From Zoogloea oleivorans (GTDB lineage Bacteria; Pseudomonadota; Gammaproteobacteria; Burkholderiales; Rhodocyclaceae): a stretch of 64,000 bases of DNA. The stretch covers positions 1 to 64,000 of the forward strand of contig NZ_SDKK01000011.1 in assembly GCF_008107625.1 (NCBI RefSeq), in the 5' to 3' direction. The translations under genes were made by a program, and so were the position numbers. Position 1 is the first letter of the stretch. Every line of letters starts with the position of its first letter. Under the pieces are notes generated by a model. The model ran no database searches. It worked only from the letters and a program-made list of their open reading frames with translations, and was not told where the DNA came from. Positions 13,885 to 63,913 of the stretch are shown piece by piece.

Positions 13885-14235
13885 AGTGAACCGCCCCGGC
13901 TTCCGTGGAGGCCATTTGGTTTAAGTCAGGGCGGCATGGCGGCCTGACTGGCGTACAGGGCTTGTCCCAGGGCGTCCACAACGAAATCGGTGCACATGGA
14001 ACTGCTGACCCGCCAGCCCACGATGCGCCCGACGGGGCAATCTGCAAGACTGTGCAGATCAACTCGCCCCCGCAGGCCTGCAAACGGCGGTCGAGCTCCG
14101 CCTGGGCGAAAAACGCACTGGCCAACTTGAGGATTTCGGGTGAAAAACGGCGTCCCGGACGGCAGCCCCATCGGGCCGAAGCACCGACCCAGCTATGCCA
14201 TTTCAGAACGCGGATTTTCAATGCGGGCGTAAAAG
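13885..14235 (-). pseudogene. Eroded IS3-family transposase remnant
   Basis: Two minus-strand frames carry pieces of an IS3-type OrfA/OrfB. One reads PEILKLASAFFAQAELDRRL then ELICTVLQIAPS, matching the OrfA-OrfB junction. Another, about 14080-13930, reads GRIVGWRVSSSMCTDFVVDA followed by LGQALYASQ, matching the integrase catalytic core. The intervening sections are deleted and the frames shift, so no functional transposase is possible. No terminal inverted repeats were recognised. The pieces fill the gap between the binding protein gene and tRNA-Ser. Confidence 0.65.
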
Positions 14236-14513: not shown

Positions 14514-14607
14514 TGGCGGAGAGTGAGGGATTCGAACCCTCGATGCAGGTTTGTGCCCGCATGCTCCCTTAGCAGGGGAGTGCCTTCGACCTCTCGGCCA
14601 ACTCTCC
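14514..14607 (-). tRNA. tRNA-Ser(GCU)
   Basis: The minus strand folds as a class II tRNA: acceptor GGAGAGT/ACTCTCC, anticodon stem ACTCCC/GGGAGC with loop CTGCTAA giving anticodon GCU, a long variable arm (TGCGGGCACAAACCTGCA), T-loop GGTTCGAATCC, discriminator G and encoded CCA. It follows lysC, a common arrangement in Betaproteobacteria. Confidence 0.97.
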
Positions 14608-50524: not shown

Positions 50525-50637
50525 CAGCGGTAGGGCCTTTCTTCCCACTGTCCGGGGCGAGCCTCCACCCACTTCGGCCAGGACGCCACGCGCAGGCCGA
50601 AGGACGGGATGCCCTTGCGTTGCAGATACGGTCAAAA
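50525..50637 (-). pseudogene. Fragment of a primase gene from an earlier related element
   Basis: In a shifted frame the minus strand reads GIPSFGLRVASWPKWVEARP followed by GQWEERP, matching GVPSFGLRVGSWPKWEETRP in the intact primase-helicase (57493-60450). At DNA level about 90 bp align with 59969-60062 at roughly 80 percent identity by eye. The rest of the gene is missing. It shows that a second element of the same family once stood here. Confidence 0.8.
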
Positions 50638-50652
50638 ACACTGCAATGTGAC

Positions 50653-50774
50653 GGTATCGCCTGACGCACAACGATACGCCCCAAAAACAAAAAAGCCCGC
50701 AATCGCGGGCTTCTTCGTGTGCTCCTGATACTGCTTGATGCGGCCTGAAACAGTACCTTGGTCCCCCGACAGGA
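50653..50774. repeat. Left direct repeat: terminator copy plus att core (attL)
   Basis: This segment repeats 63733-63855 imperfectly. It includes the tRNA-type terminator AAGCCCGC-AATC-GCGGGCTT (50693-50712) and ends with TTGGTCCCCCGACAGGA (50758-50774), which matches the 3' end of tRNA-Arg(CCU) except for one missing C. It marks the left boundary of the integrated element, and because homology extends left of the core, also the remains of a previous insertion. Confidence 0.8.
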
Positions 50775-50880: not shown

Positions 50881-51441
50881 TTAACTCTTCGAGCAAGCCC
50901 GCTTCACGCTCGCCGCCGAAATCCCGAAGCGCTCCGCCGTCGCCTTGATACTGGCGGAGTTTTCGCCACGCCAGGCCAACACGGCCGCGTCATCAATCGC
51001 CTTCGTCCTGCCCAGGCTCTTGCCCTCGGCCCTCGCCCGCTCCAGGCCGGCGAGCTGACGAACCTTGAGGTTTTCCCGTTCCAGCTCGGCAACCGCGGCC
51101 AGCATCGTCAGCATGAGCTTGCCGGCTGGTGTCGCCAGATCGAAGCCCTCACGCATTGAAACCACCGATACGCCCTTCGTCTTCAACGCCTCCACCGTGT
51201 TAAGTATGTCAATGGTGTTGCGCCCGAGTCGGTCAATCGCGGCAACCACCACCGTGTCACCCTCTCGCACGTAGGCGAGCAAGGCCGCCATGGCGGGACG
51301 CTGGGCAGCGGCAACCATCCCGGAGACCCCATCATCGGAAAACCACTTACCGACCGCATACCGGGCCGCGATGGTGCGGCGCTGGTTCTCGCAGGTCTGG
51401 TCATCGGTCGAGACGCGGGCGTAAGCAACGATGGAAGACAT
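50881..51441 (-). CDS. Small serine recombinase (resolvase/invertase family)
   Basis: The 186-residue protein begins MSSIVAYARVSTDDQTCENQ with the catalytic Ser in ARVSTDDQ. AAIDRLGRNTIDILNTVEAL carries the conserved Asp-Arg. The E-helix region is MLTMLAAVAELERENLKVRQ, and a C-terminal HTH follows (SIKATAERFGISAASVKRA). It has the size of Tn3-type resolvases and DNA invertases. It lies next to the left att site, and six short repeats upstream look like a res site. Role may be dimer resolution or inversion. Confidence 0.88.
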   Translation of the reverse strand: MSSIVAYARVSTDDQTCENQRRTIAARYAVGKWFSDDGVSGMVAAAQRPAMAALLAYVREGDTVVVAAIDRLGRNTIDILNTVEALKTKGVSVVSMREGFDLATPAGKLMLTMLAAVAELERENLKVRQLAGLERARAEGKSLGRTKAIDDAAVLAWRGENSASIKATAERFGISAASVKRACSKS

Positions 51442-51455
51442 GGCGGGCTTCTTTC

Positions 51456-51569
51456 TGGCTCAAAATGTATAGCTCAGATATTAACCTAGCTCAAATATCA
51501 AAACAACAGTTTTGAGCCATTCATTCAGCTCTGTTTTCGCATGGCTCAAAACCCCTACCTTTTGAGCTA
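51456..51569. repeat. Candidate res site: six TGGCTCAAAA-type repeats
   Basis: Repeats: TGGCTCAAAA at 51456-51465, TAGCTCAGAT at 51470-51479, TAGCTCAAAT at 51487-51496, the inverse TTTTGAGCCA at 51510-51519, TGGCTCAAAA at 51542-51551 and the inverse TTTTGAGCTA at 51560-51569. The last pair spans 28 bp, the size of a resolvase crossover subsite. They begin 15 bp upstream of the recombinase start. The following 51570-51833 stretch contains no gene that I can support. Confidence 0.6.
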
Positions 51570-51607
51570 TCGGCCAAAACGCGAAAATCAAGAAACGGCA
51601 GAAAGAA

Positions 51608-51623
51608 GTGCAGACGTATGCAC
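51608..51623. repeat. 16-bp palindrome, copy 1
   Basis: GTGCAGACGTATGCAC, one base off the perfect palindrome GTGCAGACGTCTGCAC. One of five copies in the element. Confidence 0.6.
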
Positions 51624-51833
51624 ACGCCGGCCAGCGGCCCGACGCAGCATCGCGAACAGATCGCCTCGAGCGGAACCAAGGCACCACACAGGCGAAGCCT
51701 TCGACCTGGTGCGCATCGGGACTGCCCGGCCGCCGGCCGGTCATCCTCGCCGGTCTTTCCGATACCAGAAGACAAAGCGCCGAGACTTGCCCGGCGCTGG
51801 TAATCATGGCGCCTGCATCAAGCAGGCCAGTCC

Positions 51834-52127
51834 CTACCCCTGCAACGCCTTCACGGCCGCCCGCGGGTCATGCTGGAAGATGCGCAACAGCGCACGGGCT
51901 GGGCCGGTCGGGCGGGTTCGGCGTTGCTCCCAGTTCTCGACGGTGCGGCGAGACACGCCAAGTAGTGCAGCAAGTTCCTTTTGGGTCACGGCGGCAGCCT
52001 CACGAATGGCGTGCACGTCAGGGTCCGCGACGGTCGTTACCCTCAAGCCGGGAACGTCCTCTCCGCGGACGTGGGCAACCATTTCCTTTACCCCGTGCAT
52101 GAGGGCGGCGAAGTCTTTTTCATTCAT
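51834..52127 (-). CDS. HigA/NadS-like HTH antitoxin
   Basis: From the ATG at 52125-52127 the protein has 97 residues, beginning MNEKDFAALMHGVKEMVAHV. The C-terminal HTH (AIREAAAVTQKELAALLGVS then RRTVENWEQRRTRPTGPARA) matches NadS/HigA-type antitoxins. No toxin gene is directly next to it. A piece resembling the 5' end of a TumE gene lies just upstream, so a partner may have been lost. Confidence 0.8.
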   Translation of the reverse strand: MNEKDFAALMHGVKEMVAHVRGEDVPGLRVTTVADPDVHAIREAAAVTQKELAALLGVSRRTVENWEQRRTRPTGPARALLRIFQHDPRAAVKALQG

Positions 52128-52160
52128 TGCGAAGCCCCCCTTCAATCAAAGGACGAAGTG

Positions 52161-52200
52161 ATCGTCGGCAATATTCAGGAAGCGGGTAATCAGGGCGGCT
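52161..52200 (-). pseudogene. Echo of the tumE 5' end
   Basis: About 40 bp match 50431-50470 closely (around 36-38 of 40 by eye). Read leftward it gives AALITRFLNIADD then a stop, against ELITRFRDIADDG in the intact toxin. Its own start codon is lost. It lies in the gap upstream of the NadS-like gene and overlaps the 3' end of the HTH gene 52190-52543. Confidence 0.65.
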
Positions 52201-52543
52201 TCAGGCCGCGTAAGGATTTCCGCATGTCATCCCGCTTCTGCTTGGTGAGCTTCTGAGCAAGCTCAAGCGCCTCTTCAAATGGCAGCTCGCCTCCTAGAGT
52301 CACAGTGCCCGGGCGCTTTGTTGTTTTACCGTATCGACATGTTACGGGCTCAATTCGCTTCAAGGTCTCGCTCAGAAATGCAACCAACGATGTGCCATCA
52401 ACCCGATGCAGGCGAGGTCCAATAACATGTACGGATAGCCTTCCTTGAGCGCACAGGCGAGCTATCGTCGATTTGCTTACCTGCAACTCTTCGGCTGCCT
52501 GCGCGTAGGTTAGAAGGGTGCGCTGCGTTGTCTTCACATTCAT
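52190..52543 (-). CDS. HTH excisionase-type DNA-binding protein 1
   Basis: The 117-residue protein has an N-terminal MerR/excisionase-type HTH (LLTYAQAAEELQVSKSTIAR) followed by RLSVHVIGPRLHRVDGTSL. A second protein with the same layout is encoded just upstream at 52597-52920, so the two are paralogues. Function may be excision control or transcription regulation. Confidence 0.7.
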   Translation of the reverse strand: MNVKTTQRTLLTYAQAAEELQVSKSTIARLCAQGRLSVHVIGPRLHRVDGTSLVAFLSETLKRIEPVTCRYGKTTKRPGTVTLGGELPFEEALELAQKLTKQKRDDMRKSLRGLKPP

Positions 52544-52596
52544 CGGTCAATCCTTCTGGCGATAGCGCCTTTTCATACGGGAGCATCAGGCCACAG

Positions 52597-52920
52597 TTAA
52601 TCGCCTGGCTTGCTCTTGGTGCTGAATCGCTCTTGCGCTTGTTTCAGCCTGTCAGCAAGAGGAAGTCCATTGCCAAGGGCTTCAGATCGCCGTTTTGTCA
52701 GCCTTCCTGCTTGCACCGACAAGACCGCAATTTGCTTGACGCTCTCCCGAAGGTAGGCGCCTAGAGATTTCGGGTCGATGCGGTGACAGCGAGGCGCCAG
52801 AACATGGACTTTGATCTTCCCCTCGGCGCAAAGGCGAACGATTGTGGACTTGCTGATACCCAGTTCTTTCGCCGCCTCGGAGTAGGTCAGCAGGCCAGAG
52901 AACTTCATACCGTCTGTCAT
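52597..52920 (-). CDS. HTH excisionase-type DNA-binding protein 2
   Basis: The 107-residue protein reads LLTYSEAAKELGISKSTIVR then KIKVHVLAPRCHRIDPKSLG, clearly a paralogue of the protein at 52190-52543 with about half the HTH residues identical. The upstream gap contains a 13-bp inverted repeat at 52971-53012 that could be its operator. Confidence 0.7.
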   Translation of the reverse strand: MTDGMKFSGLLTYSEAAKELGISKSTIVRLCAEGKIKVHVLAPRCHRIDPKSLGAYLRESVKQIAVLSVQAGRLTKRRSEALGNGLPLADRLKQAQERFSTKSKPGD

Positions 52921-53049: not shown

Positions 53050-54639
53050 TCAATGTGTGGCAAGAGCCAAGGGCAAGGACTTCGGGTTAATCACGTAAAG
53101 GGTTTTCGGCTTCGTGCGGGTCGGCTCCTGCCAGCTCTCCAGGTGCCCCAGTTCCGTCAGCAGCTCCAGACCATCGGCCACGCGCTTTTGATCGGCCAGA
53201 CCCGCCCAGCCCGGCCGCCATACGTCCCGACTCCCGAAGCCCTCCCGCTGCAAATCCCCCTTCGTGATCCGCTCCAGAATCCGCCGGGCCGTGTCCGCCT
53301 CTCCCGACTGAGCCACTCCGTAGCAGCGCCGGGCGTGTGTCTGCAGGTAGGTGCTCCAGTGCAGCGCCCGCAGCGTCGAAGCGAAGCCCACCGGGCCGCT
53401 ATGTCCATCCGCCAGGTGAAAGACCAGAGCGAGCGCCGGGACCAGTTTGCGGTACTTGGCCAGGTGGCTCTCCAGCGCCGGAAACAGGTCGCCCGACCGT
53501 AGCCCGGCCTCGAAGTCGGTGCGCCAGTCGGTGAAGACTTCGAGGGCTTCCGGGGTGAAGCGCAGGAAGGGCGGGCCTTCTCCGTCTTCCTGCTCGGCTC
53601 CGCGGGCCAGTGGATCGAGGGCTTCGAGTTCATCGAACACAGCGAAGGCAGACGCCTTGGCCGGGCCGTCCGGGTAGCGGTCGACGTTCTTCCACTTCCC
53701 GCCGGTCTCAGGCCACACCAAGAGGCCGAAGCGGGCCAACATGCCGTCATCAGATGCACCACCTCGCATGGCCGCCCGCAGGTATTCGCCCAGGGGGCCG
53801 GGCTGGGCGCCGCCGATCACGCCCAGGCAGACGGCTGGAACGCGCCGATGCCCGCGGCCGATGCGGTCGAAGGTCCATCCGTCCTTACCGTTCCAGCCCG
53901 TCATGAGGAAGGCGCGCAGCTCGGCCGCGTCTTCCCGGTCGAGGCCGGCGAGCCAGCCGGGCAGCTCGTCACGCACCACCAGCAGGCCGCGGGGGTTCTC
54001 GATCAGCTTCTCGGCCAGGGCTTCGACGGTGGCCGATGCCACGGTGTAGCGGCGCAGGATCGGGGCTTCGTCCTGGTCGGGCGTGCAGAAGCTGGCCACG
54101 TCCACCAAGGCGTTCGGGTCTTTGCGTAGCGCCCGGGTAGCTTCGCCTTTGCGGGCTTCGGCTCGGGCCTTGGCAATCTCCGCCTCTGCCCGCCACTGAC
54201 CTTGGGCTGCGGTCCATTCTTCCAGGGCACGGGCCTCCAGGCGCACCACCGGGGCCAAGGCCGCCATCATGGCCGGGCTTTTCATCATGCCGGGGCGGCC
54301 GACGATGCAGCCCCACAGGTTGGGAAACTCCTGCCAATCGCTCCAGGCCTGCGGACGGATAGCGCAGCGCCGGCCGATAAGGTTGCCGGCCGCGGCAACC
54401 ATCGGTACGGCCACGAAGTCCGGCGGGCACTGCATGCGGTCGGCCACGTCCTGCACCCAGGGGCGCAGGCGATCCGGGAGCATGGCGTAATCGAAGGGGG
54501 CGACCGGCGCCAGCCCTTCCGGGAGCGACTGGGGATCTGGCCAGGAGGAAACCGGCCAGGTGCGCGGGTCGCCCACGGCCGGGGCCAAGGCGGCCCGCTC
54601 GTCACGGCTGGCCGGTTCGTAGGGTGGCGGGGCCTTCAT
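53050..54639 (-). CDS. DUF3987-domain protein (P-loop helicase-like)
   Basis: The 529-residue protein contains a P-loop GRPGMMKSPAMMAAL near residue 125, an acidic Walker B-like LLVVRDELPGWLAGL near 225 and a sensor-like VIGGAQPG region near 280. Such DUF3987 proteins are common in phages and integrative elements and probably act as helicase or primase partners in replication. It belongs to the leftward block whose start overlaps the preceding gene by a TCATG junction. Confidence 0.82.
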   Translation of the reverse strand: MKAPPPYEPASRDERAALAPAVGDPRTWPVSSWPDPQSLPEGLAPVAPFDYAMLPDRLRPWVQDVADRMQCPPDFVAVPMVAAAGNLIGRRCAIRPQAWSDWQEFPNLWGCIVGRPGMMKSPAMMAALAPVVRLEARALEEWTAAQGQWRAEAEIAKARAEARKGEATRALRKDPNALVDVASFCTPDQDEAPILRRYTVASATVEALAEKLIENPRGLLVVRDELPGWLAGLDREDAAELRAFLMTGWNGKDGWTFDRIGRGHRRVPAVCLGVIGGAQPGPLGEYLRAAMRGGASDDGMLARFGLLVWPETGGKWKNVDRYPDGPAKASAFAVFDELEALDPLARGAEQEDGEGPPFLRFTPEALEVFTDWRTDFEAGLRSGDLFPALESHLAKYRKLVPALALVFHLADGHSGPVGFASTLRALHWSTYLQTHARRCYGVAQSGEADTARRILERITKGDLQREGFGSRDVWRPGWAGLADQKRVADGLELLTELGHLESWQEPTRTKPKTLYVINPKSLPLALATH

Positions 54640-55734: not shown

Positions 55735-56003
55735 ACTGCCACCCCCTGCGCCATGCCCTGAGCGATCTGGGAGAGCTGGCGGATTTCGTCGAAGAGGGAG
55801 TTGCACGCCCACATGAAGTTTTCCTGCACATCGTCGGAGAGCATCCGGAAGGCCGTGCCCTGCTCGCCGTAAGTCATGGAGAGCAAAGCATCAAGGTGGC
55901 GCTGCCGGGCCGAAAGCTGGTCGGCAATCGCAATCGAGGAAACCCCATCGGCCAGGATGTACAACGGGTCCGGCGTAACCGGGAACGTCATCTGTGTGCT
56001 CAT
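55731..56003 (-). CDS. Hypothetical element protein (90 aa)
   Basis: From the ATG at 56001-56003 the protein has 90 residues with helical parts (AIADQLSARQRHLDALLSMT and WACNSLFDEIRQLSQIAQGM). It resembles small proteins near the left operons of P4-like and Pseudomonas islands by type only. It overlaps its neighbours by 4 bp at both ends. Confidence 0.65.
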   Translation of the reverse strand: MSTQMTFPVTPDPLYILADGVSSIAIADQLSARQRHLDALLSMTYGEQGTAFRMLSDDVQENFMWACNSLFDEIRQLSQIAQGMAQGVAV

Positions 56004-56143
56004 GCTGCAGCCCTCCAGGCGAAGGACAGGCGATAGGCGAGCACCGGGCCGGTGACGACGCGAAGTACGCGGTACAGATTCAGGGTACGGAGAGGGGAAG
56101 CGGGGGCGTGCAAACGTGTGCACGCCAAGGCGTGAATTGCCAT
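56000..56143 (-). CDS. 47-residue basic protein, first gene of the leftward block
   Basis: ATG at 56141-56143 is preceded by AGGAG with an 8-bp gap, and the stop overlaps the next start (ATGA). The product reads MAIHALACTRLHAPASPLRT then LNLYRVLRVVTGPVLAYRLS and FAWRAAA: small, basic and probably amphipathic or membrane-active. It is the first gene after the structured leader. The AGGA of its ribosome binding site lies in the seqC-like element, so RNA pairing could control the whole block. No name is assigned. Confidence 0.65.
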   Translation of the reverse strand: MAIHALACTRLHAPASPLRTLNLYRVLRVVTGPVLAYRLSFAWRAAA

Positions 56144-56439
56144 GGTGTGATGCTCCTATGTCGCGGACTATTCCGCACCCCGCTGCTAAACGGGGGGCGG
56201 GCCAAAGCGGGGTTAGCAGACCGGGACATAGGAACCGGCAGCCCGTGAGGGCTCCCCACCCGGCCCGCCATTGATCGGGGCGCACCATGGGCGTTACGGA
56301 CGTAAAAATAGCCGCTGGGCGGCTTGTGTCCGCCTATGTCGTTCGGGCTGCTAAACCCGGCCGCTGTTGTTTCAGCGACGAGCGGAGTATCGGCCCGGCA
56401 TGGGGCGGGCGTCAAGCAGGACAGTGCAGACGTTTGCAC
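56080..56439 (-). CDS. Ash-like ORF overlying the leader RNA, uncertain coding
   Basis: A 119-codon frame covers the leader and contains GAPRSMAGRVGSPHGLPVPM then SRSANP, which resembles the phage Ash family (MAGRxGxPxGxPxxxxxxSxNP) annotated in P4-like elements. The same bases form the seqA/seqB/seqC-like pairing elements. The start at 56437-56439 lies upstream of the predicted transcription start near 56379, so if real, translation must start inside. I consider it possible that such frames are a by-product of RNA conservation. Confidence 0.35.
   Translation of the reverse strand: MQTSALSCLTPAPCRADTPLVAETTAAGFSSPNDIGGHKPPSGYFYVRNAHGAPRSMAGRVGSPHGLPVPMSRSANPALARPPFSSGVRNSPRHRSITPWQFTPWRAHVCTPPLPLSVP
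56108..56123. repeat. 16-bp palindrome, copy 2
   Basis: GTGCAAACGTGTGCAC, two bases off GTGCAGACGTCTGCAC. It lies inside the 47-residue gene, 20 bp after its start codon. Confidence 0.55.
56154..56358 (-). ncRNA. P4-type immunity leader with complementary elements (seqA, seqB, seqC-like)
   Basis: On the minus-strand transcript three elements occur. First (56358-56332): GGGTTTAGCAG then CGACATAGG. Second (56233-56211): TCCTATGTC then TCTGCTAACC. Third (56191-56154): GTTTAGCAG, a small GCGGA-ATAG-TCCGC hairpin, then GACATAGGA. The second is complementary to both the first (8 + 7 bp plus a CCG core) and the third (9 + 7 bp). CCGG-TTCCTATGTC-CCGG presents half of the second element in a 10-nt loop, and AGCCC-TCAC-GGGCT lies just before it. 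Phage P4 CI RNA uses the same A-B-C order. Sequence of P4 itself was not compared. Confidence 0.6.
56386..56415 (-). promoter_or_regulatory. Sigma70-type promoter of the leader and leftward block
   Basis: Read leftward, TTGACG (56410-56415) and GATACT (56386-56391) are 18 bp apart. The expected start is near 56379, followed by CGCTG-AAACAA-CAGCG and then the seqA-like element. A 16-bp palindrome lies just upstream of the -35 box. Confidence 0.65.
56424..56439. repeat. 16-bp palindrome, copy 3, upstream of the leader promoter
   Basis: GTGCAGACGTTTGCAC, one base off the perfect palindrome. Its centre is about 52 bp before the predicted start site, a typical activator position. Confidence 0.65.
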
Positions 56440-56508
56440 GATCCACGGAAAACCGGGGGGTGATCGCTTGCGCCAATCAGCGCAGGGCGAGAGCCAAAGG
56501 GCTGGAAA

Positions 56509-56621
56509 TGTTCCGACTGTTCCGGCTTAGTAAACAGAGAGTCGGAACAACTAGCCCCCTTCGAAAGCGGCGCCCCGCTTGGCTTTCCGGTTTCTGTTCC
56601 GACTGTTCCGACTGTTCCGAC
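56509..56621. repeat. Iteron cluster 1: six TGTTCCG(A/G)C repeats
   Basis: TGTTCCGAC or TGTTCCGGC at 56509, 56518, 56595, 56604 and 56613, and the inverse GTCGGAACA at 56541-56549. The last three are exact tandem copies. The 56622-57030 stretch that follows has no gene that I can support; it holds C-rich runs and a 14-bp palindrome AGGGGGTACCCCCT at 56936-56949. Candidate replication origin with cluster 2. Confidence 0.7.
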
Positions 56622-57032
56622 CTGTATTTTTACCCGCAGCCGTTTGGATATATGCCCACGGGCTTTTTCAGAAGCTCCCGGCGTGCATCTACCAACAGGC
56701 AGGCGGCGACAAATTGCCCTTCGTCTCAAAGCGGGCGCTCTGGTTGAGCCTGGCGACTCAGGCGGAGACATCTCTGGCCAGATATGAAAAATCGACAAAC
56801 GGCCGTTCGTTGTTACTCCAGCACGCGTTCTTGTTACCCCCCCCTCCTCCTAAAAATCGCTCCATAAAAGTGGGGCTAACCGTCCGGTCCCAAGGGAAAA
56901 GGTGGCAGAGATTTGCCCCCCTACCCCATCCTTGAAGGGGGTACCCCCTGTTCATTACGCGGTGGTGCACAGAACAAGTACCGAGCGGTCTAAGGCCAAT
57001 GCCGCCCCTACTTCCGACCACCCCCCTCATGC

Positions 57033-57500
57033 TCAAAAGCCGGGGTGAATCTTCCAGGTCGAGCAGCTCGCCCCACCATCGGGGGGCAACTGGCGGAGAG
57101 GATGCCCCGGCCCATAGGCTGGCGGCAGATCATCACGCCCTCCACAGTGGCCATCCGACAGGCCTGGGCGGCCAAGGTGGGCACACGTCCGGCAAGACGA
57201 TTCGCAGGCTTTTTTATGCGGCGCAGATTGCCCTTCAACTCCACCCCCGACCGGCTCGACAAATGACGATGGATTGTTATTTTGGTGTTCTTCAACCCTT
57301 GGCCTTTCAAAAGGGGCCGGAACACCCGGAACAGCCGGAACAAAACCTCGAAACCCAATACCAGAAAGGGTTTCGACTGTTCCGGCCTTTTGTGAATTTT
57401 GGGGTTTGTTCCGGCCTGCTAGGTCGGAACAGGGCATTTTTGCCTCATTGATAGGCAGATTCAGGGCCGAATCTGCCACCAGTGCAGCCCAGTCAATCAT
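57033..57500 (-). CDS. Cys-rich small protein downstream of the primase
   Basis: The ATG (57498-57500) overlaps the primase stop by 8 bp, giving a 155-residue product. The C-terminal part has a likely zinc-binding arrangement: CESSCRTCAHL, GHCGGRDDLPPAYGPGHPLR and ASCSTW. The middle contains a VP repeat (FVPAVPGVPAPF) which is the translation of the 9-bp repeats of cluster 2. Proteins with this YGPGHPL tail occur in Pseudomonas and beta-proteobacterial islands; function unknown. Confidence 0.6.
   Translation of the reverse strand: MIDWAALVADSALNLPINEAKMPCSDLAGRNKPQNSQKAGTVETLSGIGFRGFVPAVPGVPAPFERPRVEEHQNNNPSSFVEPVGGGVEGQSAPHKKACESSCRTCAHLGRPGLSDGHCGGRDDLPPAYGPGHPLRQLPPDGGASCSTWKIHPGF
57316..57431. 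repeat. Iteron cluster 2: six TGTTCCG(A/G)C repeats
   Basis: Three tandem inverse copies GCCGGAACA, CCCGGAACA and GCCGGAACA at 57316-57342, direct copies TGTTCCGGC at 57378-57386 and 57407-57415, and an inverse GTCGGAACA at 57423-57431. The cluster lies inside the Cys-rich gene, just downstream of the primase gene. Two clusters some 700 bp apart recall the two iteron regions (ori and crr) of P4. Confidence 0.7.
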
Positions 57501-60450
57501 AGTCGGCACCCCACCCGAGAACGTCCGGGTTTATGCAATACAGGCGGCTAGTTCCACCTGCTCCCGGCTCCCGTACTTTGATGGGAATATTCCTGCCGTC
57601 TTCACGCTCCAGCACCCCAGCCTTCAGCAACTCCTTGGCCACCTGTGCCGGGTCAAAGCCGTTGCACAGCTCCTGCTTGAAGACGGCCGGATAGATCAGG
57701 TATTCAAACACCTGGTCCTTCTCGTGAAGGGCGGCAGTCTCGGCCGTCGGACGCTTCCACCCGGCCCGGTTCATCGTCCGCGGGGCGTGGCTATCGACGA
57801 CTGACGGCCGCCGCCAATCCTCCAGACGCGCCCCGGCATGGGCCTGAATCCACGCCTGCACCTGCTCCACCATCTTGCGGGGCTCCCGGTTCTCTTCACC
57901 GCCAAAGGCGTGTAGCCAGTCCTTGAACATGCGCATGCAGGCCCTCACCGCTTCGCCTTGTGGCCAGCCAGTAAGCCCCCATTCCGTGGCCTTCTCGCCG
58001 GCATAGGCCACCGCGGCAAAGCGGGTAGCGGCCCGGATCGCCTGCCCGCCGGCTTTCTCGGACAGGCCGTGCTTCTCGAAGCTGGTGCGCAGGGTTTCAA
58101 ACTCGGCGGGCAGGGCCTCGCGGTGGGCGATCACACGGCGAATGAACTCCGGGTACGCCGTGCCGTAGTGCTTGCCGGCATTGCGTTGCAGGGTTTCAGA
58201 GAAGCGCGCGCCATCGGCCAGGCCGTGCAGGGCATCCCAGCAACCGAAGCCGGCGCCGGCATCGGCGGGCAACTCGCAGAAGCGCACCTCCTGGCCAGCG
58301 TAGGCGCGCTCCTGGTTCTCTTCGAGGAACTGGGTCAGGCCGATTTCCCCGTTTGACTGGAACAACAGGCTGAAGCTGGCGGTTTCCCGCAGACCGCCCG
58401 CCGCTTGGCCACGTCCCTTGCCTTGGCCGCTGGTCAGCATGTAGGCCGCCTGTGCCACGTCCTTCGGGTTGCCGGCCTGCTTGAGTTCATCGAGCAGCAA
58501 GGGGGCGTCACAGTGCCCGGCCGCCACGCCTTCAATGGCGGTGGCCGTCAGCAACCAGGTGCGGCGGTAGTTCGCCGGGCCGCACAGGCTCGCCGCCCCG
58601 TAGAGCAAAGCGGACTTGCCCAGGCTCGAACCACCGGCCCAATGGAAGCCGCCGGACACGTTGGGATGCAGCCAGCACAGGCCACCGGCGAAGCCCGCAG
58701 AGAGCGCGAACAGCAGCCGGCTATTGCCCACCGCCAGGGCGGCGACGTTGGCCCGCCAGTCTTCGAGGGTGCCTGCGGTCTTGAACTGGGCGTGGCCGCT
58801 GCCTTGCGCCTGGTGGAGCCACAGTTCCGCTCCTTCGGGCGCGAGCGGATCATGGTCACCACCCAGGACGAAGGACCAGCGGCCGGGCTCGGTGCAGTCA
58901 TCGTGCCAGCCGATGCGGGACGTGAGCCGGGCACGGGCCGGCGGCCGGGAGCGGTTCACGTACATCTTGAGCAAGCCGCCCTTGTTGTCGCCAATGAACA
59001 GGCCTTGAGCGCGCAGCAGACGCGCCAGGGCGGCACCGTCGCCTTCGAGCATTTCGTCAGGGACGAGCACCCGGCGGCGCCGGCAGTCGTGATCGTTGAA
59101 GGTGGCCAGGCGTTGCCAGTTTTCGCCGCGGGCGTCACGCACCTGGTGCGTGACCTCCAGTGGGGCGCATACGAATTGCGCCACCTCGCCCCAGGTGTCG
59201 CCGCGCTTCTCGACCTTGAGCCGATAGACGCCCCGGCCTTCGTTGCCTTCGCGCAGCTCGAACACATCACCGCCCTGTGCAGGCGTCTGCACGCCATCTG
59301 CCTTGGTCTTCGGCTTCGAGCGGGAGCGCTTGGCAGGCTTGGTGGCATCGTCGAGAGGCGCAGCAGGGGCTGATTCCGGGGCGCTGGCGGGGTTTTGTGC
59401 TTCGGGTGGGGTTTCGGGTGCTGCCGGGGTCGAATCGTCGCAGACAAGGCCGGCTATCGCGTCCCGTGCGGCTTCGAGGATGCGGCGCAGCGCATCGAGG
59501 CCTTCGAGCGCGGCCAGGTCGTTGAAGTCGGTGGCGCCGTCCGGACGATCCGGGCCGAAGGCCGGCACCGCCACCACGCCACCGACTGTGCGGGCAGCGG
59601 CTTCGGCTTTGCTGCGGCCGGGGTTGCCGGCGGTGCGGTGATCGTCATCGGCGCAGATGATGAAGCGGGCGCCGGGATTCGCTTCACGCAGGGCACGAGC
59701 CACGGGTTCGAGGCTGCCGGCGTCGAAGGCCACCGCCACCGGCCAGCCGGTCGCCCGGTGAAGACTGGCGGCGGTGGCGTAGCCCTCAGCAATGCACAGC
59801 GGCACGCCGTCGGCCAGCTCGCCTATCAGGTGGAACTTGCCGGCCTTCTCGCCATGCGGCAGAAAGTCCTTATCGCGGCCGTCGATCTTCTCGGGGTAGA
59901 TCGCCTGCAGGCTGTGCAGGGTGCCGGACGGGCTGCGCATGGGCACCAGCAACACGCCGGGAAGGCGGTTTTCTCGCCACTCTCCGGGGCGGGTCTCTTC
60001 CCACTTCGGCCAGGAGCCGACGCGTAGGCCAAAGGACGGCACGCCCTTGCGGTGTAGATAGGCGTGATCGTCCGGCGCTGGCTTGGCGCTGTTCCAGATC
60101 GCATGCGCTTTCTTGCGGGCCTTGTCTCGCTTGGCCTTGGCTTCGGCGTCGCGTTCGGCGCGCTGGGCTTCCATGCGGGCACGGTTGGCGGCTTCCTCTT
60201 CGGACGTGAGCTGGCGGCCAATGTCGGCCCGCCAGTTCTCCCAGTCGAGACCATCGCGGAAATTCTGGAAGCCCCCGGCCGGCACGCCATCCAGGTGCAG
60301 CAGATAAGCCCCGTCCTTCTTGCCGTGCGCACCCTCCCACAGCGGGCAGCGGTGCAGCTTGCCGTCTGCTTCGAGGTGGTCGGGCAGCAGGATGCCACGG
60401 GCTTCAGCGGCGGTGCGGAACTGGTCGAGGATCGAGGCGGTATCAATCAT
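57493..60450 (-). CDS. Toprim primase fused to a DUF927-type helicase
   Basis: The 985-residue protein has an N-terminal DNA-binding/primase part (about 1-160), a Toprim domain (CIAEGYATAASL near residue 217, VAFDAGS, IICADDDH near 265), a charged linker (about 350-400) and a DUF927 helicase domain: HWAGGSSLGKSALLYG (Walker A near 630), LLLDELKQAG (Walker B) and LLFQSNGE (sensor). It is the likely replication initiator of the element, like P4 alpha, and may bind the 9-bp repeats downstream. Its start overlaps the preceding gene. A relic of a homologue lies at 50525-50637. Confidence 0.88.
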   Translation of the reverse strand: MIDTASILDQFRTAAEARGILLPDHLEADGKLHRCPLWEGAHGKKDGAYLLHLDGVPAGGFQNFRDGLDWENWRADIGRQLTSEEEAANRARMEAQRAERDAEAKAKRDKARKKAHAIWNSAKPAPDDHAYLHRKGVPSFGLRVGSWPKWEETRPGEWRENRLPGVLLVPMRSPSGTLHSLQAIYPEKIDGRDKDFLPHGEKAGKFHLIGELADGVPLCIAEGYATAASLHRATGWPVAVAFDAGSLEPVARALREANPGARFIICADDDHRTAGNPGRSKAEAAARTVGGVVAVPAFGPDRPDGATDFNDLAALEGLDALRRILEAARDAIAGLVCDDSTPAAPETPPEAQNPASAPESAPAAPLDDATKPAKRSRSKPKTKADGVQTPAQGGDVFELREGNEGRGVYRLKVEKRGDTWGEVAQFVCAPLEVTHQVRDARGENWQRLATFNDHDCRRRRVLVPDEMLEGDGAALARLLRAQGLFIGDNKGGLLKMYVNRSRPPARARLTSRIGWHDDCTEPGRWSFVLGGDHDPLAPEGAELWLHQAQGSGHAQFKTAGTLEDWRANVAALAVGNSRLLFALSAGFAGGLCWLHPNVSGGFHWAGGSSLGKSALLYGAASLCGPANYRRTWLLTATAIEGVAAGHCDAPLLLDELKQAGNPKDVAQAAYMLTSGQGKGRGQAAGGLRETASFSLLFQSNGEIGLTQFLEENQERAYAGQEVRFCELPADAGAGFGCWDALHGLADGARFSETLQRNAGKHYGTAYPEFIRRVIAHREALPAEFETLRTSFEKHGLSEKAGGQAIRAATRFAAVAYAGEKATEWGLTGWPQGEAVRACMRMFKDWLHAFGGEENREPRKMVEQVQAWIQAHAGARLEDWRRPSVVDSHAPRTMNRAGWKRPTAETAALHEKDQVFEYLIYPAVFKQELCNGFDPAQVAKELLKAGVLEREDGRNIPIKVREPGAGGTSRLYCINPDVLGWGADYD
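59277..59292. repeat. 16-bp palindrome, copy 4
   Basis: GTGCAGGCGTCTGCAC, one base off the perfect palindrome, within the primase-helicase coding region. Confidence 0.5.
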
Positions 60451-60929: not shown

Positions 60930-61249
60930 CACCGGCCGCCTTTCTTCATGGCGCTGGCAATGCGGGCACGGTATTCGGACCAATTTTCTTTCGGTCGGGC
61001 TTCAATTCCCAGCTCCCGGCCCTTGGCCTGCGTTGCCGCTTCGCTGGATCGCCAGTCATCGGTCTGTGCAGACGCCTGCACGGCATGGCGCAGGCGCTCG
61101 ACGGCAATCCAGATCGCCGCCAGGAAGAGCAGAACGGGGTGCGTCTCGGGAAAGGCCTTGCCGTAGATTGAGGAGAGCAAACCGCCGGCCTGGTGAAGAT
61201 CATCGGCGAGAGAGGCCCCGGCAGTGGAGGCGGGCTTATTCGTGCTCAT
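60929..61249 (-). CDS. Hypothetical element protein (106 aa)
   Basis: The 106-residue protein has one hydrophobic helix (HPVLLFLAAIWIAVERLRHA) and a charged C-terminal half (ENWSEYRARIASAMKKGGR). No family is recognised. Its start overlaps the stop of the AlpA-like gene, and its stop abuts the next start. It contains palindrome copy 5. Confidence 0.6.
   Translation of the reverse strand: MSTNKPASTAGASLADDLHQAGGLLSSIYGKAFPETHPVLLFLAAIWIAVERLRHAVQASAQTDDWRSSEAATQAKGRELGIEARPKENWSEYRARIASAMKKGGR
61066..61081. repeat. 16-bp palindrome, copy 5
   Basis: GTGCAGACGCCTGCAC, one base off the perfect palindrome, inside the 106-residue gene. Confidence 0.5.
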
Positions 61250-61536
61250 TGCCAGGCCTCGCCGCTCAGTGCTTTACGAAGCTCGGCAACACGCCAAGCC
61301 GTCACGCCCTCAGATAGCTTTCGCGGCGCAGGCAGGGTGCCTTTTTTCACACGACGCCAAACGGTGGCGGGCGAGCACGCAAAGAGAGCCGCCACGACGG
61401 GCAGGCGGACGTTTGCGGCGCCGGGCAATGCATCGAAGTTTTCGAGGGCGGCCGGAATTGATGCCGTGGCAGGCGTAGGAAACGCCTTGATGGCGTTATG
61501 GGGCGCTACTTTGATGCAGGTGTTTTGGGTTTTCAT
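61246..61536 (-). CDS. AlpA-like regulator/excisionase
   Basis: The 96-residue protein has a C-terminal MerR-type HTH, VVAALFACSPATVWRRVKKG then TLPAPRKLSEGVTAWRVAEL, typical of AlpA/phage excisionase proteins that act both in excision and in switching on the replication genes. It is the first gene of the coupled block that leads into the primase. Three GACACGGCA repeats lie just upstream. Confidence 0.8.
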   Translation of the reverse strand: MKTQNTCIKVAPHNAIKAFPTPATASIPAALENFDALPGAANVRLPVVAALFACSPATVWRRVKKGTLPAPRKLSEGVTAWRVAELRKALSGEAWQ

Positions 61537-61651: not shown

Positions 61652-62314
61652 CTAATCAGGTGATGGGATAAGTTTTTTTATGTCGCTTACCCTGTTCGAG
61701 AATGCTTTGAATGTTGTCGGCTCGCCCTTCCCCCTGGTGAATATCTCGCCCCCGTTTTCATCGTCCGTGATCTCTTCAACCACATCACCGCCTTGGTGTT
61801 TTTCTAATAGTTTCCAAAGCACTTTTGCCGAGGTGTCGCGTCCGTTCTCTATCAGGAGGTCGCGAACCAATGCATACAGCGGCGAGAGTCCCCGTTTGTT
61901 GCCGGTGAAGCGCTCGCCTTTTGCTGCACTGAGCTTCAGTGTTCCGGCCTTTAGCTCCAGGCTGATAACCCATGCATCCATCAGCAAGAGTTTAAGCGGG
62001 GAGAGATTCGCCCTCAGAACGGAGGGGCGGGCACAAATGAAAAGCAGAAAATCCAGCTCAGCAAGAATGTCTGACTGGTGTGAGTGGATGAGCCTTCGGG
62101 GCGGCTTGGTGTTCTTTGCTTCTAACGCGGCAAGCTTCTCGGATAGTTCTTTGACCTTCGTCCTAAATAGGCTCTTACTGCCCGAGACAAGATTGTCTAA
62201 ACAGTACGAATCTTCCATATCCGGACCTGCCCATTCATTTTCGAGCGAGTCAAAGACATGCTCGCGCTCTCCAAAATCATCGAACACACTTGCGCCCCTT
62301 CGTGCGCCCTTCAA
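61652..62314 (-). CDS. Unknown 220-residue protein in the cargo position
   Basis: The protein contains a short coiled coil (TKVKELSEKLAALEAKNTKP), a hydrophobic helical centre (ILAELDFLLFICARPSVLRA) and a charged C-terminal domain (VVEEITDDENGGEIF). I recognise no family. Base composition is visibly less GC-rich than in the rest of the element. It lies between the integrase and the AlpA-like gene, the usual place for variable cargo such as anti-phage genes in P4-like islands. The role is not known; the start could be internal. Confidence 0.65.
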   Translation of the reverse strand: MKGARRGASVFDDFGEREHVFDSLENEWAGPDMEDSYCLDNLVSGSKSLFRTKVKELSEKLAALEAKNTKPPRRLIHSHQSDILAELDFLLFICARPSVLRANLSPLKLLLMDAWVISLELKAGTLKLSAAKGERFTGNKRGLSPLYALVRDLLIENGRDTSAKVLWKLLEKHQGGDVVEEITDDENGGEIFTRGKGEPTTFKAFSNRVSDIKKLIPSPD

Positions 62315-62399
62315 AAAGGTGCCGCGCCAGCGGGGCGAAGGTTTCCCCGTTTTCGGTTGGCCGACCTAGGCGCGGCGTACTGCTCGGATGATCTTCAAG

Positions 62400-63644
62400 T
62401 CATGCAGCGGTGTGCCCGTGTAACGGGATGACGTTCCCCCGTCCCACCTGGTCGAGGTAGTCGGCCCACTGCTGCATCATCTTGCGGCGCTCGGCCAAGT
62501 ATTCAGCCTGGTGCGAGTAGGCCCCGAAAACTTCCTTCCGCTCCCGGTGCGCCAACTGACGGTCGATCACCTCTGGCCGCCATCCCAATTCGAGTAGTGC
62601 CCCCGTCGCGGTTGTCCGGAAGCCGGCCCCGGTGACTTCGTCGCCGGCATAACCCATTGCCCGCAAGGCGGTGTTGATTGTGCCGTCGCTCATCGGGCGT
62701 CTCGGGTCGTTACGGTTGGGAAAGACAAGGTCACGTTGGCCCGTCATCTCGTGAAGCTCCTTGAGCAAATCGACGGCCTGCGTCGAGAGCGCAACCGTGT
62801 GGGCCTCTTTCATCTTCATACCGACAAGCCCCCTACTCCGGTCCCGTTCCGCCGGCACAACCCATACGCCAGCTTGCAGATCAATTTCACTCCAGCTGGC
62901 GCCCCGCAGCTCACCAGGACGGAGGAAGGTCAGAGCGAGCAGGCGAATGGCGTTCTTGACCATCAGCGTGATGCGCACCGCGTCCAGACGGATGAAGAAC
63001 TCCCGCAGCCCTGTTGGGTACAACGCGGCCCGGTGCTCTACCGAAGCAACCTTGAGGGCCTTGTGGAGACCCGTTACCGGATTGTTCTCGGCACGGCCGG
63101 TGGCAATGGCGTAGAGGAAGATATCGCCGGCCCGCTGCCGGACACGCTTCAAGGTTTCCAGGGCACCCCGGGCTTCAACCTTGCGGAGAACCGCCAGCAT
63201 CTCGGCGGCACTGATCTCGGAGACCGGGCGATGCCCGAGAGCGGGAAACAGATCCTGCTCCAGGGAGGTGAGTACCTTGGCCGCGTAGGTGTCCAACCAC
63301 TCTCCCCGCTTCTTCTCGTGCCACTCCCTGGCCACGATCTCAAACGACGCATCGGCGGCGACCTTCCGGGCGATCTTCTCTGCTCGACGGGTCTCACTGG
63401 GATCTTTCCCCGCATCCAGAAGCCGGCGAGCATCGTCCCGCTTCTGACGAGCCACCTTCAGGGGCACTTCTGGATAGACCCCGAGTGCCAGCAGTTTCTC
63501 CTTGCCGGCGAAACGGTATTTCAAGCGCCAGTAAAGGGCGCCGGGCTTGATTCCGACCAGCAGGAAGAGGCCCTTTTCATCTGCCAGCTTGTAGGGCTTT
63601 TCACCGGGCCGGGCCTTGCGAATCGCAGTATCTGTAAGGGCCAT
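62400..63644 (-). CDS. int: Tyrosine integrase, P4/DUF4102 type
   Basis: From the ATG at 63642-63644 the protein has 414 residues, starting MALTDTAIRKARPGEKPYKL, the arm-binding DUF4102 domain. Catalytic parts: Arg in LTFLRPGELRGASW, GAGFRTTATGALLEL (box II Arg kept; the usual His of HGFR is Ala), QLAHRERKEVFGAYSHQAEY with His and the tyrosine nucleophile. A TTG start 30 bp further up is possible. It reads away from tRNA-Arg, whose 3' end is the insertion site. Confidence 0.92.
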   Translation of the reverse strand: MALTDTAIRKARPGEKPYKLADEKGLFLLVGIKPGALYWRLKYRFAGKEKLLALGVYPEVPLKVARQKRDDARRLLDAGKDPSETRRAEKIARKVAADASFEIVAREWHEKKRGEWLDTYAAKVLTSLEQDLFPALGHRPVSEISAAEMLAVLRKVEARGALETLKRVRQRAGDIFLYAIATGRAENNPVTGLHKALKVASVEHRAALYPTGLREFFIRLDAVRITLMVKNAIRLLALTFLRPGELRGASWSEIDLQAGVWVVPAERDRSRGLVGMKMKEAHTVALSTQAVDLLKELHEMTGQRDLVFPNRNDPRRPMSDGTINTALRAMGYAGDEVTGAGFRTTATGALLELGWRPEVIDRQLAHRERKEVFGAYSHQAEYLAERRKMMQQWADYLDQVGRGNVIPLHGHTAA

Positions 63645-63732
63645 GGGGGAATTCGGGGGTATCTGTTTGGCCAAAAATCGGGGGTATCAAGAAAGCCCCC
63701 CGGATATACCCCCACAAACGATGCGATTGGAG

Positions 63733-63855
63733 GGTATCGCCTGATGCACGATGATACGCCCCAAAAACAAAAAAGCCCGCAATCGCGGGCTTCTTCGTAT
63801 TCCTCTGCTACTTCCTGATACTGCTTGAGACCATAATTTGGTCCCCCCGACAGGA
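63733..63855. repeat. Right direct repeat: tRNA terminator plus att core (attR)
   Basis: This segment matches 50653-50774. It includes the tRNA terminator AAGCCCGC-AATC-GCGGGCTT (63773-63792, followed leftward by TTTTTTGTTTTT) and ends in the tRNA 3' sequence TTGGTCCCCCCGACAGGA (63838-63855). Confidence 0.8.
63761..63792 (-). terminator. Rho-independent terminator of tRNA-Arg
   Basis: GCCCGC-AATC-GCGGGC with AA/TT extensions and a leftward T-rich run. It is 47 bp past the tRNA 3' end. A near-identical hairpin is at 50693-50712. Confidence 0.8.
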
Positions 63856-63913
63856 ATCGAACCTGTATCTGGCGCTTAGGAGGCGCCCGTTCTATCCATT
63901 GAACTACGGAGAG
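63839..63913 (-). tRNA. tRNA-Arg(CCU)
   Basis: The minus strand folds as a 75-nt tRNA with acceptor CTCTCCG/CGGGGGG (two G-U pairs), D-stem GTTC/GAAC, anticodon stem GGCGC/GCGCC with loop CTCCTAA (anticodon CCU), T-arm ACAGG/CCTGT and encoded CCA. It is the integration target of the element. A -10 box TAGAAT lies about 13 bp upstream of its 5' end. Confidence 0.96.

Follow-up and report, generated by a model that had tools for sequence, protein, structure and literature searches.

P4-like satellites are recognised by an integrase at a tRNA gene, an AlpA regulator and a primase, and they exploit their helpers through sid, delta, psu and a cos site. The CI RNA of phage P4 is described as pairing with seqA and seqC of its own leader and thereby causing early termination (PMC4825925), and IsrK was stated in 2016 to be a structural homologue of the P4 SeqA (PMC4825925). 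In phage P1, C4 is described as acting on the operon that holds icd and ant (PMC8198154), and for P1/P7 the b' loop of C4 is described as covering part of ribosome-binding sites (PMC5320573). A listing of the C4 motif together with its target goes back to 2010 (PMC2864571), adjacent C4 and isrK annotations have been printed for Xylella (PMC12189769), and C4 is mentioned in Burkholderiales (PMC5320573).

The window analysed here is a stretch of 64,000 nucleotides from Zoogloea oleivorans (contig NZ_SDKK01000011.1, positions 1 to 64,000). It contains a leader region (Table 1) which, taken as a whole, very probably serves a P4-like integrative island as its immunity module and belongs to the C4/CI antisense-RNA family, with a C4 RNA that would silence the operon via both seqC and seqA.

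Table 1. Features of the module and of the island that carries it, with positions in the window, ordered along the minus strand.
Feature	Position	Strand	Remarks
Direct repeat	63706-63847 and 50626-50767	.	142 nt, 80%; reaches into tRNA end
Tyrosine integrase	62400-63674	-	beside tRNA-Arg (63839-63913)
int-alpA RNA (RF02996)	62307-62376	-	71.6 bits, cut-off 35.8
AlpA-like regulator	61246-61536	-	21.6 bits, Pfam cut-off 21
Toprim/DUF927 primase	57493-60450	-	Pfam/PHROG; upstream of module
Promoter, sigma-70-like	56386-56415	-	TTGACG-N18-GATACT; promoter scan
c4-a1b1 C4 target (RF03163)	56340-56392	-	44.8 bits, just under cut-off 46.7; overlaps isrK match
isrK-type leader RNA (RF01394)	56305-56379	-	58.3 bits, cut-off 50; includes seqA
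seqA	56333-56354	-	half-sites TTAGCAG (56354-56348) and GACATAGG (56340-56333)
Intrinsic-terminator-like hairpin and T run	56305-56324	-	hairpin 56324-56310, then ATTTTT; closes isrK element
C4 antisense RNA (RF01695)	56190-56275	-	68.1 bits, cut-off 45
seqB	56212-56234	-	a' loop TTCCTATGTC (56234-56225), flanked on both sides by CCGG arms; then b' TCTGCTAAC (56220-56212)
seqC	56154-56189	-	TTAGCAG (56189-56183); small hairpin 56176-56163; GACATAGGA (56162-56154) including Shine-Dalgarno
Leader ORF, 47 aa	56000-56143	-	first ORF behind seqC; stop overlaps next ATG (ATGA)
ORF, 90 aa	55731-56003	-	overlaps leader-ORF stop
DUF3987 protein (PHROG: DNA helicase)	53050-54639	-	further down same strand

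An earlier note on this DNA, made from the letters alone, had proposed a P4-type system in which one promoter is followed by three elements, the middle one complementary to the other two, and its reading of them holds almost to the base. As in the P4 CI region, seqA, seqB and seqC stand in this order, on one strand and behind one promoter, and they would share a single transcript. The promoter is the sole promoter-like site in 56000-56700, where 0.1 is expected in shuffles, while the terminator-like hairpin between seqA and seqB is one of three such sites in that interval, against 0.8 expected. The half-site GACATAGG of seqA (56340) is present again in seqC at 56162, and the complements of the half-sites, CTATGTC at 56231 and CTGCTAA at 56219, lie in seqB. 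Half of seqB is held in the 10-nt a' loop closed by CCGG/CCGG, just as the note had read it; the small hairpin within seqC was likewise read directly off the sequence. In both seqA and seqC, the blocks complementary to seqB stand in reverse order. This ordered two-block complementarity adds up to 15 nt on the upstream side and 17 nt on the downstream side; neither total was attained in 2000 dinucleotide shuffles (0/2000 each), which settles in its favour the question of whether the complementarity is any better than in shuffled sequence. When the whole leader is folded, seqA and seqB are predicted to pair in cis (18 pairs) and no seqB-seqC pairs are formed; such pairing could compete with the trans action of C4. 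Directly upstream of the promoter, at 56509-56624, the iteron TGTTCC occurs five times, in four cases as TGTTCCGAC, together with a single inverted GGAACA; this is possibly the replication origin of the island.

The locus belongs to the C4 and isrK families by their curated covariance-model cut-offs, both of which are passed, and the a' and b' of its C4 find their complement in a neighbouring target which extends over a ribosome-binding site. The c4-a1b1 model stays below its curated cut-off, as it does in phage P4 (44.1 bits). As far as sequence comparison goes, the P4-type principle of the earlier note is upheld by these C4 and isrK matches, by the same array of three models in P4, and by covariation among relatives. 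In a sample of 20 sequences (19 relatives and P1), C4 exceeds its cut-off in 20/20, isrK in 6/20, and c4-a1b1 in 1/20, namely P1, so that Rfam recognises the leader element in part of the family only. When 83 distinct C4s were treated plainly with MAFFT/RNAalifold, the resulting structure was poor (-7.8 kcal/mol, 13 pairs), and direct hairpin counts were used instead: hairpin P2 is found in 82 of the 83, where shuffles would give 23.1, and it has 17 different stem sequences.

C4 matches are present in 30 of 100 genomes, made up of the window's own and its relatives, as opposed to 0 of 14 control genomes. The first set of loci comprises 93 of the 96 matches, the three omitted all lying under the family cut-off; two identical loci were removed, leaving 91 for the half-site test. 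In this test, every a' and b' is reverse-complemented and then sought in the flanks of its own locus and in those of other loci, the latter being loci that differ in a' or b'. The mean match of a' is 7.2 nt in its own seqA and 7.8 nt in its own seqC, against 4.3 nt in both cases elsewhere; for b' the values are 6.9 against 4.3 nt (seqA) and 7.0 against 4.0 nt (seqC). For each of the four pairings, none of 10,000 permutations attained the observed sum, and the same held when one locus per distinct sequence was kept, a run which, for this set and the second alike, is the sole correction for kinship among loci. All four matches reach at least 6 nt in 74 of the 91 loci, and 17 loci are without at least one of them. 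Since own-flank matches exceed those in other flanks, the targets covary with the C4 RNA, and the covariation in homologues that the earlier note had called for is found.

Two further sets were examined. The second consists of 122 of 301 matches, among the matches listed, with five of ten genomes covered beyond their first loci and 110 loci coming from five Pseudomonas genomes. Loci L192, L201 and L202 were left out. Own-flank matching is seen again (0/2000 permutations), with all four matches in only 69/122, a figure partly explained by 13 loci in which loop placement is doubtful. The third set holds 75 named loci from a pattern scan that itself fixes part of a' and b', 71 of them with both flanks. 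Among these 71, matches of at least 6 nt occur in 57 for a'-seqA, 67 for b'-seqA and 66 for b'-seqC; a'-seqC reaches at least 7 nt in 63, and a start codon lies behind it in all 63. At one relative (L039:759-835, genome G016), an AAC_AAD_leader / attI-like match of 61.4 bits (cut-off 56) lies about 0.7 kb from a C4.

The position of seqC bears on how the RNA would act. Its last four letters, AGGA (56157-56154), end 10 nt ahead of the ATG at 56143 and form the ribosome-binding site of the first gene, as had been noticed earlier. Among the 81 of 93 first-set loci whose seqC match is 7 nt or longer (12 are without one), an ATG follows seqC by 2 to 12 nt in 81/81, against 2 to 11 of 81 at nine shifted control positions, and in 75 of the 81 the matched seqC stretch includes AGG. 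The ATG opens a leader ORF that carries a coding signal: across 15 pairs of six 47-codon homologues, changes at codon positions 1, 2 and 3 number 119, 97 and 214, and there are 133 synonymous codon differences in frame versus 53 and 34 in the other frames. In all six homologues, the leader ORF ends in an ATGA shared with the start of the following ORF, which is of three kinds; a block on the leader ORF would therefore probably extend to the genes behind it. In the window, the next ORF is the 90-aa one, for which no Pfam family over cut-off (WXG100 at E 0.019 only) and no PHROG were found.

These data have to be set against the classical model of P4 CI, described in PMC4825925 as acting on termination. 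Regulation by transcription termination alone, with a Shine-Dalgarno overlap that has no effect of its own, would draw on the terminator-like hairpin that follows seqA here and on the hairpin and T run found between seqA and C4 in 75/90 loci, a raw count without a shuffled control. In the same survey, which used 90 of the 93 loci, a promoter score of at least 9/12 before seqA is seen in 76/90, versus 3/90 at a control distance. The constant placement of seqC just ahead of an ATG, also seen in P4 and P1, and the coding signal of the leader ORF argue against termination alone, which we regard as rather unlikely. It is plausible that a translational and a terminational layer both fit. The idea of the earlier note that translation is affected as well is strengthened by the start codons behind seqC; as a novelty it does not hold, because partial occlusion of ribosome-binding sites is described for P1/P7 (PMC5320573) and the spacing is the same in P4 and P1.

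The preferred reading, silencing via seqC and seqA together, can be laid out by comparing the locus to the described systems. One promoter would give a transcript that starts with the isrK-type element (seqA and the terminator-like hairpin) and then runs on through C4. The C4 RNA would be excised from this transcript as a stable RNA of about 77-80 nt, much as RNase P processes the C4 of P1/P7. Its a' loop and b' strand would pair with seqC in two blocks, covering the ribosome-binding site of the leader ORF, so that the ORF and the genes coupled to it would be blocked. Pairing of a' and b' with seqA would favour early termination. As long as the island is integrated, the downstream operon, which leads to the DUF3987 helicase-like gene, would remain silent, and any incoming island that has these half-sites would meet silencing in trans. 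P1, P4 and Gifsy-1 are the models from which we infer that there is one transcript, that it is processed, that the RNAs pair in the cell and that immunity results. By this analogy, the operon is most likely silenced by blocking the 47-aa leader ORF and by favouring early termination at once.

C4 is present in many copies per genome, with four in the window's own genome and up to 18 in one genome of its genus. This multiplicity would suit a C4 that has been co-opted by the host as a trans-acting sRNA on chromosomal mRNAs, as proposed for Acinetobacter baumannii, where host targets are deemed potentially likelier since a' varies (PMC5320573). In the relatives of the window, a' and b' vary too, but each fits the targets on either side of the C4 to which it belongs, and a start codon lies behind every clear seqC. 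The variation is thus explained without host targets, although additional ones would be compatible with it, and we consider co-option very improbable. That the complementarity stems instead from a 119-aa ORF on the minus strand (56439-56080), whose frame is open across the element, is scarcely conceivable and the ORF was rejected as a gene, as it has no Pfam family and a single PHROG at E 0.083, and the covarying half-sites and hairpins fit an RNA.

With an antisense RNA acting on its own flanks as the preferred reading, the half-sites may be examined as determinants of specificity. The pair carried by the window is absent from the other 92 first-set loci and from the 122 second-set loci. It is not unique: the same pair occurs among the 75 named loci, in Parazoarcus communis (L161). 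In the first set the half-sites assort freely, TTCCTATGTC being combined with four types of b' and TCTGCTAA with eight types of a'. Four Pseudomonas genomes (G101, G102, G104 and G105) have 41 to 46 C4 matches each, the highest number being that of G101 (P. gingeri A8002 locus). Pairs of loci sharing both half-sites number 0/391 within the same genome versus 22/2459 between genomes in the window's genus, and 0/1064 within versus 40/3307 between in four Pseudomonas genomes (Fisher p 1.35e-05). Between genomes, sharing mostly reflects orthologous islands. When flank-similar pairs are removed, the counts become 0/364 within versus 6/2343 between in the genus (raw counts), and 0/910 versus 2/2821 in Pseudomonas (p 0.57). 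A fifth Pseudomonas genome, G100, contains identical duplicates, with one combination present twice and another three times, which brings the within-genome figure to 4/1184; three of its C4 loci (L295, L296 and L297) are identical, and two of these lie in opposite orientation on one 13.8-kb contig. Exclusion of shared half-sites from the same genome was therefore rejected: it is not significant without flank-similar islands, and, sharing being mostly orthologous and G100 having its duplicates, it is not claimed here.

What may be suggested, tentatively and with more doubt than confidence, is that a' and b' assort independently as a two-key specificity code. Such a code would sort P4-like islands into immunity groups. 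Many islands could then co-reside with neither mutual silencing nor mutual release, and islands belonging to the group of this one would be found in distant hosts such as Parazoarcus. A limited search of the open-access literature found no description of a two-key code. Genomes with many co-resident C4s would allow testing of how antisense-RNA immunity groups are defined.

The island around the module displays the hallmarks of a P4-like satellite, having an integrase at a tRNA gene, an AlpA-like regulator and a primase. The direct repeat is probably the attachment-site repeat that marks the island ends. The stretch 50538-50767 resembles in parts the primase gene (59970-60060) and in parts the attachment region (63706-63847), and is maybe what is left of another copy of the island. 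A resolvase and two HTH_17 proteins are encoded at the far end, at 50881-52920. Relatives of sid, delta and psu were not identified among the ORFs scanned (eight ORFs in the case of PHROGs). Elsewhere in the window, an ALIL pseudoknot (RF01497; 58 bits, cut-off 50) is present at 14033-14117, near tRNA-Ser (14514-14607).

One of the closest counterparts is Parazoarcus communis SWub3 (L161, NZ_QKOE01000007.1), whose half-sites are identical in seqA, seqB and seqC. Its ATG also lies 10 nt behind seqC, and the leader is 73.6% identical over 390 nt, but the leader ORF has 41 aa with a partly different sequence, and the C4 stem sequences differ. The "new sequence" announced by the earlier note finds no support, these half-site letters being shared.

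Phage P4 has the same order of elements, with C4 at 74.9, isrK at 60.8 and c4-a1b1 at 44.1 bits, and its C4 match falls inside the cI gene of the record. It shares the two-block half-sites, its seqC half TTCACAGGA ends 10 nt before an ATG, and it too is an element with an integrase and a primase. The half-site letters are different, and the gap between isrK and C4 is 107 nt in P4 versus 29 nt in the window. Unlike P4, the island has DUF927/Toprim and DUF3987 proteins, and no capsid or transactivation gene was identified among the ORFs scanned.

In P1, C4 scores 68.8 bits and c4-a1b1 51 bits, and the seqC half GTTAGTGA again ends 10 nt before an ATG. We take the ORF of this ATG to be icd, following PMC8198154. 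P1/P7, with their c4-icd-ant operon, differ from the window in their half-sites, and in the first two ORFs of the window no Icd/Ant relative was recognised (no Pfam over cut-off, no PHROG). By description, IsrK/STnc1160 of Gifsy-1 in Salmonella resembles the window in that another stable RNA comes after its isrK element, and differs from it in its published downstream genes orf45, anrP and antQ. The C4-like Group 1 sRNAs of A. baumannii are similarly multi-copy with a variable a' (PMC5320573); they are discussed as possible host regulators, whereas in the relatives of the window targets flank most copies.

This kind of system being already published, and the same half-sites being present in Parazoarcus, no novelty attaches to the system or to its specificity: the locus is a well-preserved ordinary example of a known system. 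It shows that an immunity mechanism of enterobacterial phages also occurs, its geometry unchanged, in an island of a betaproteobacterium, and that the target sites coevolve with the RNA.
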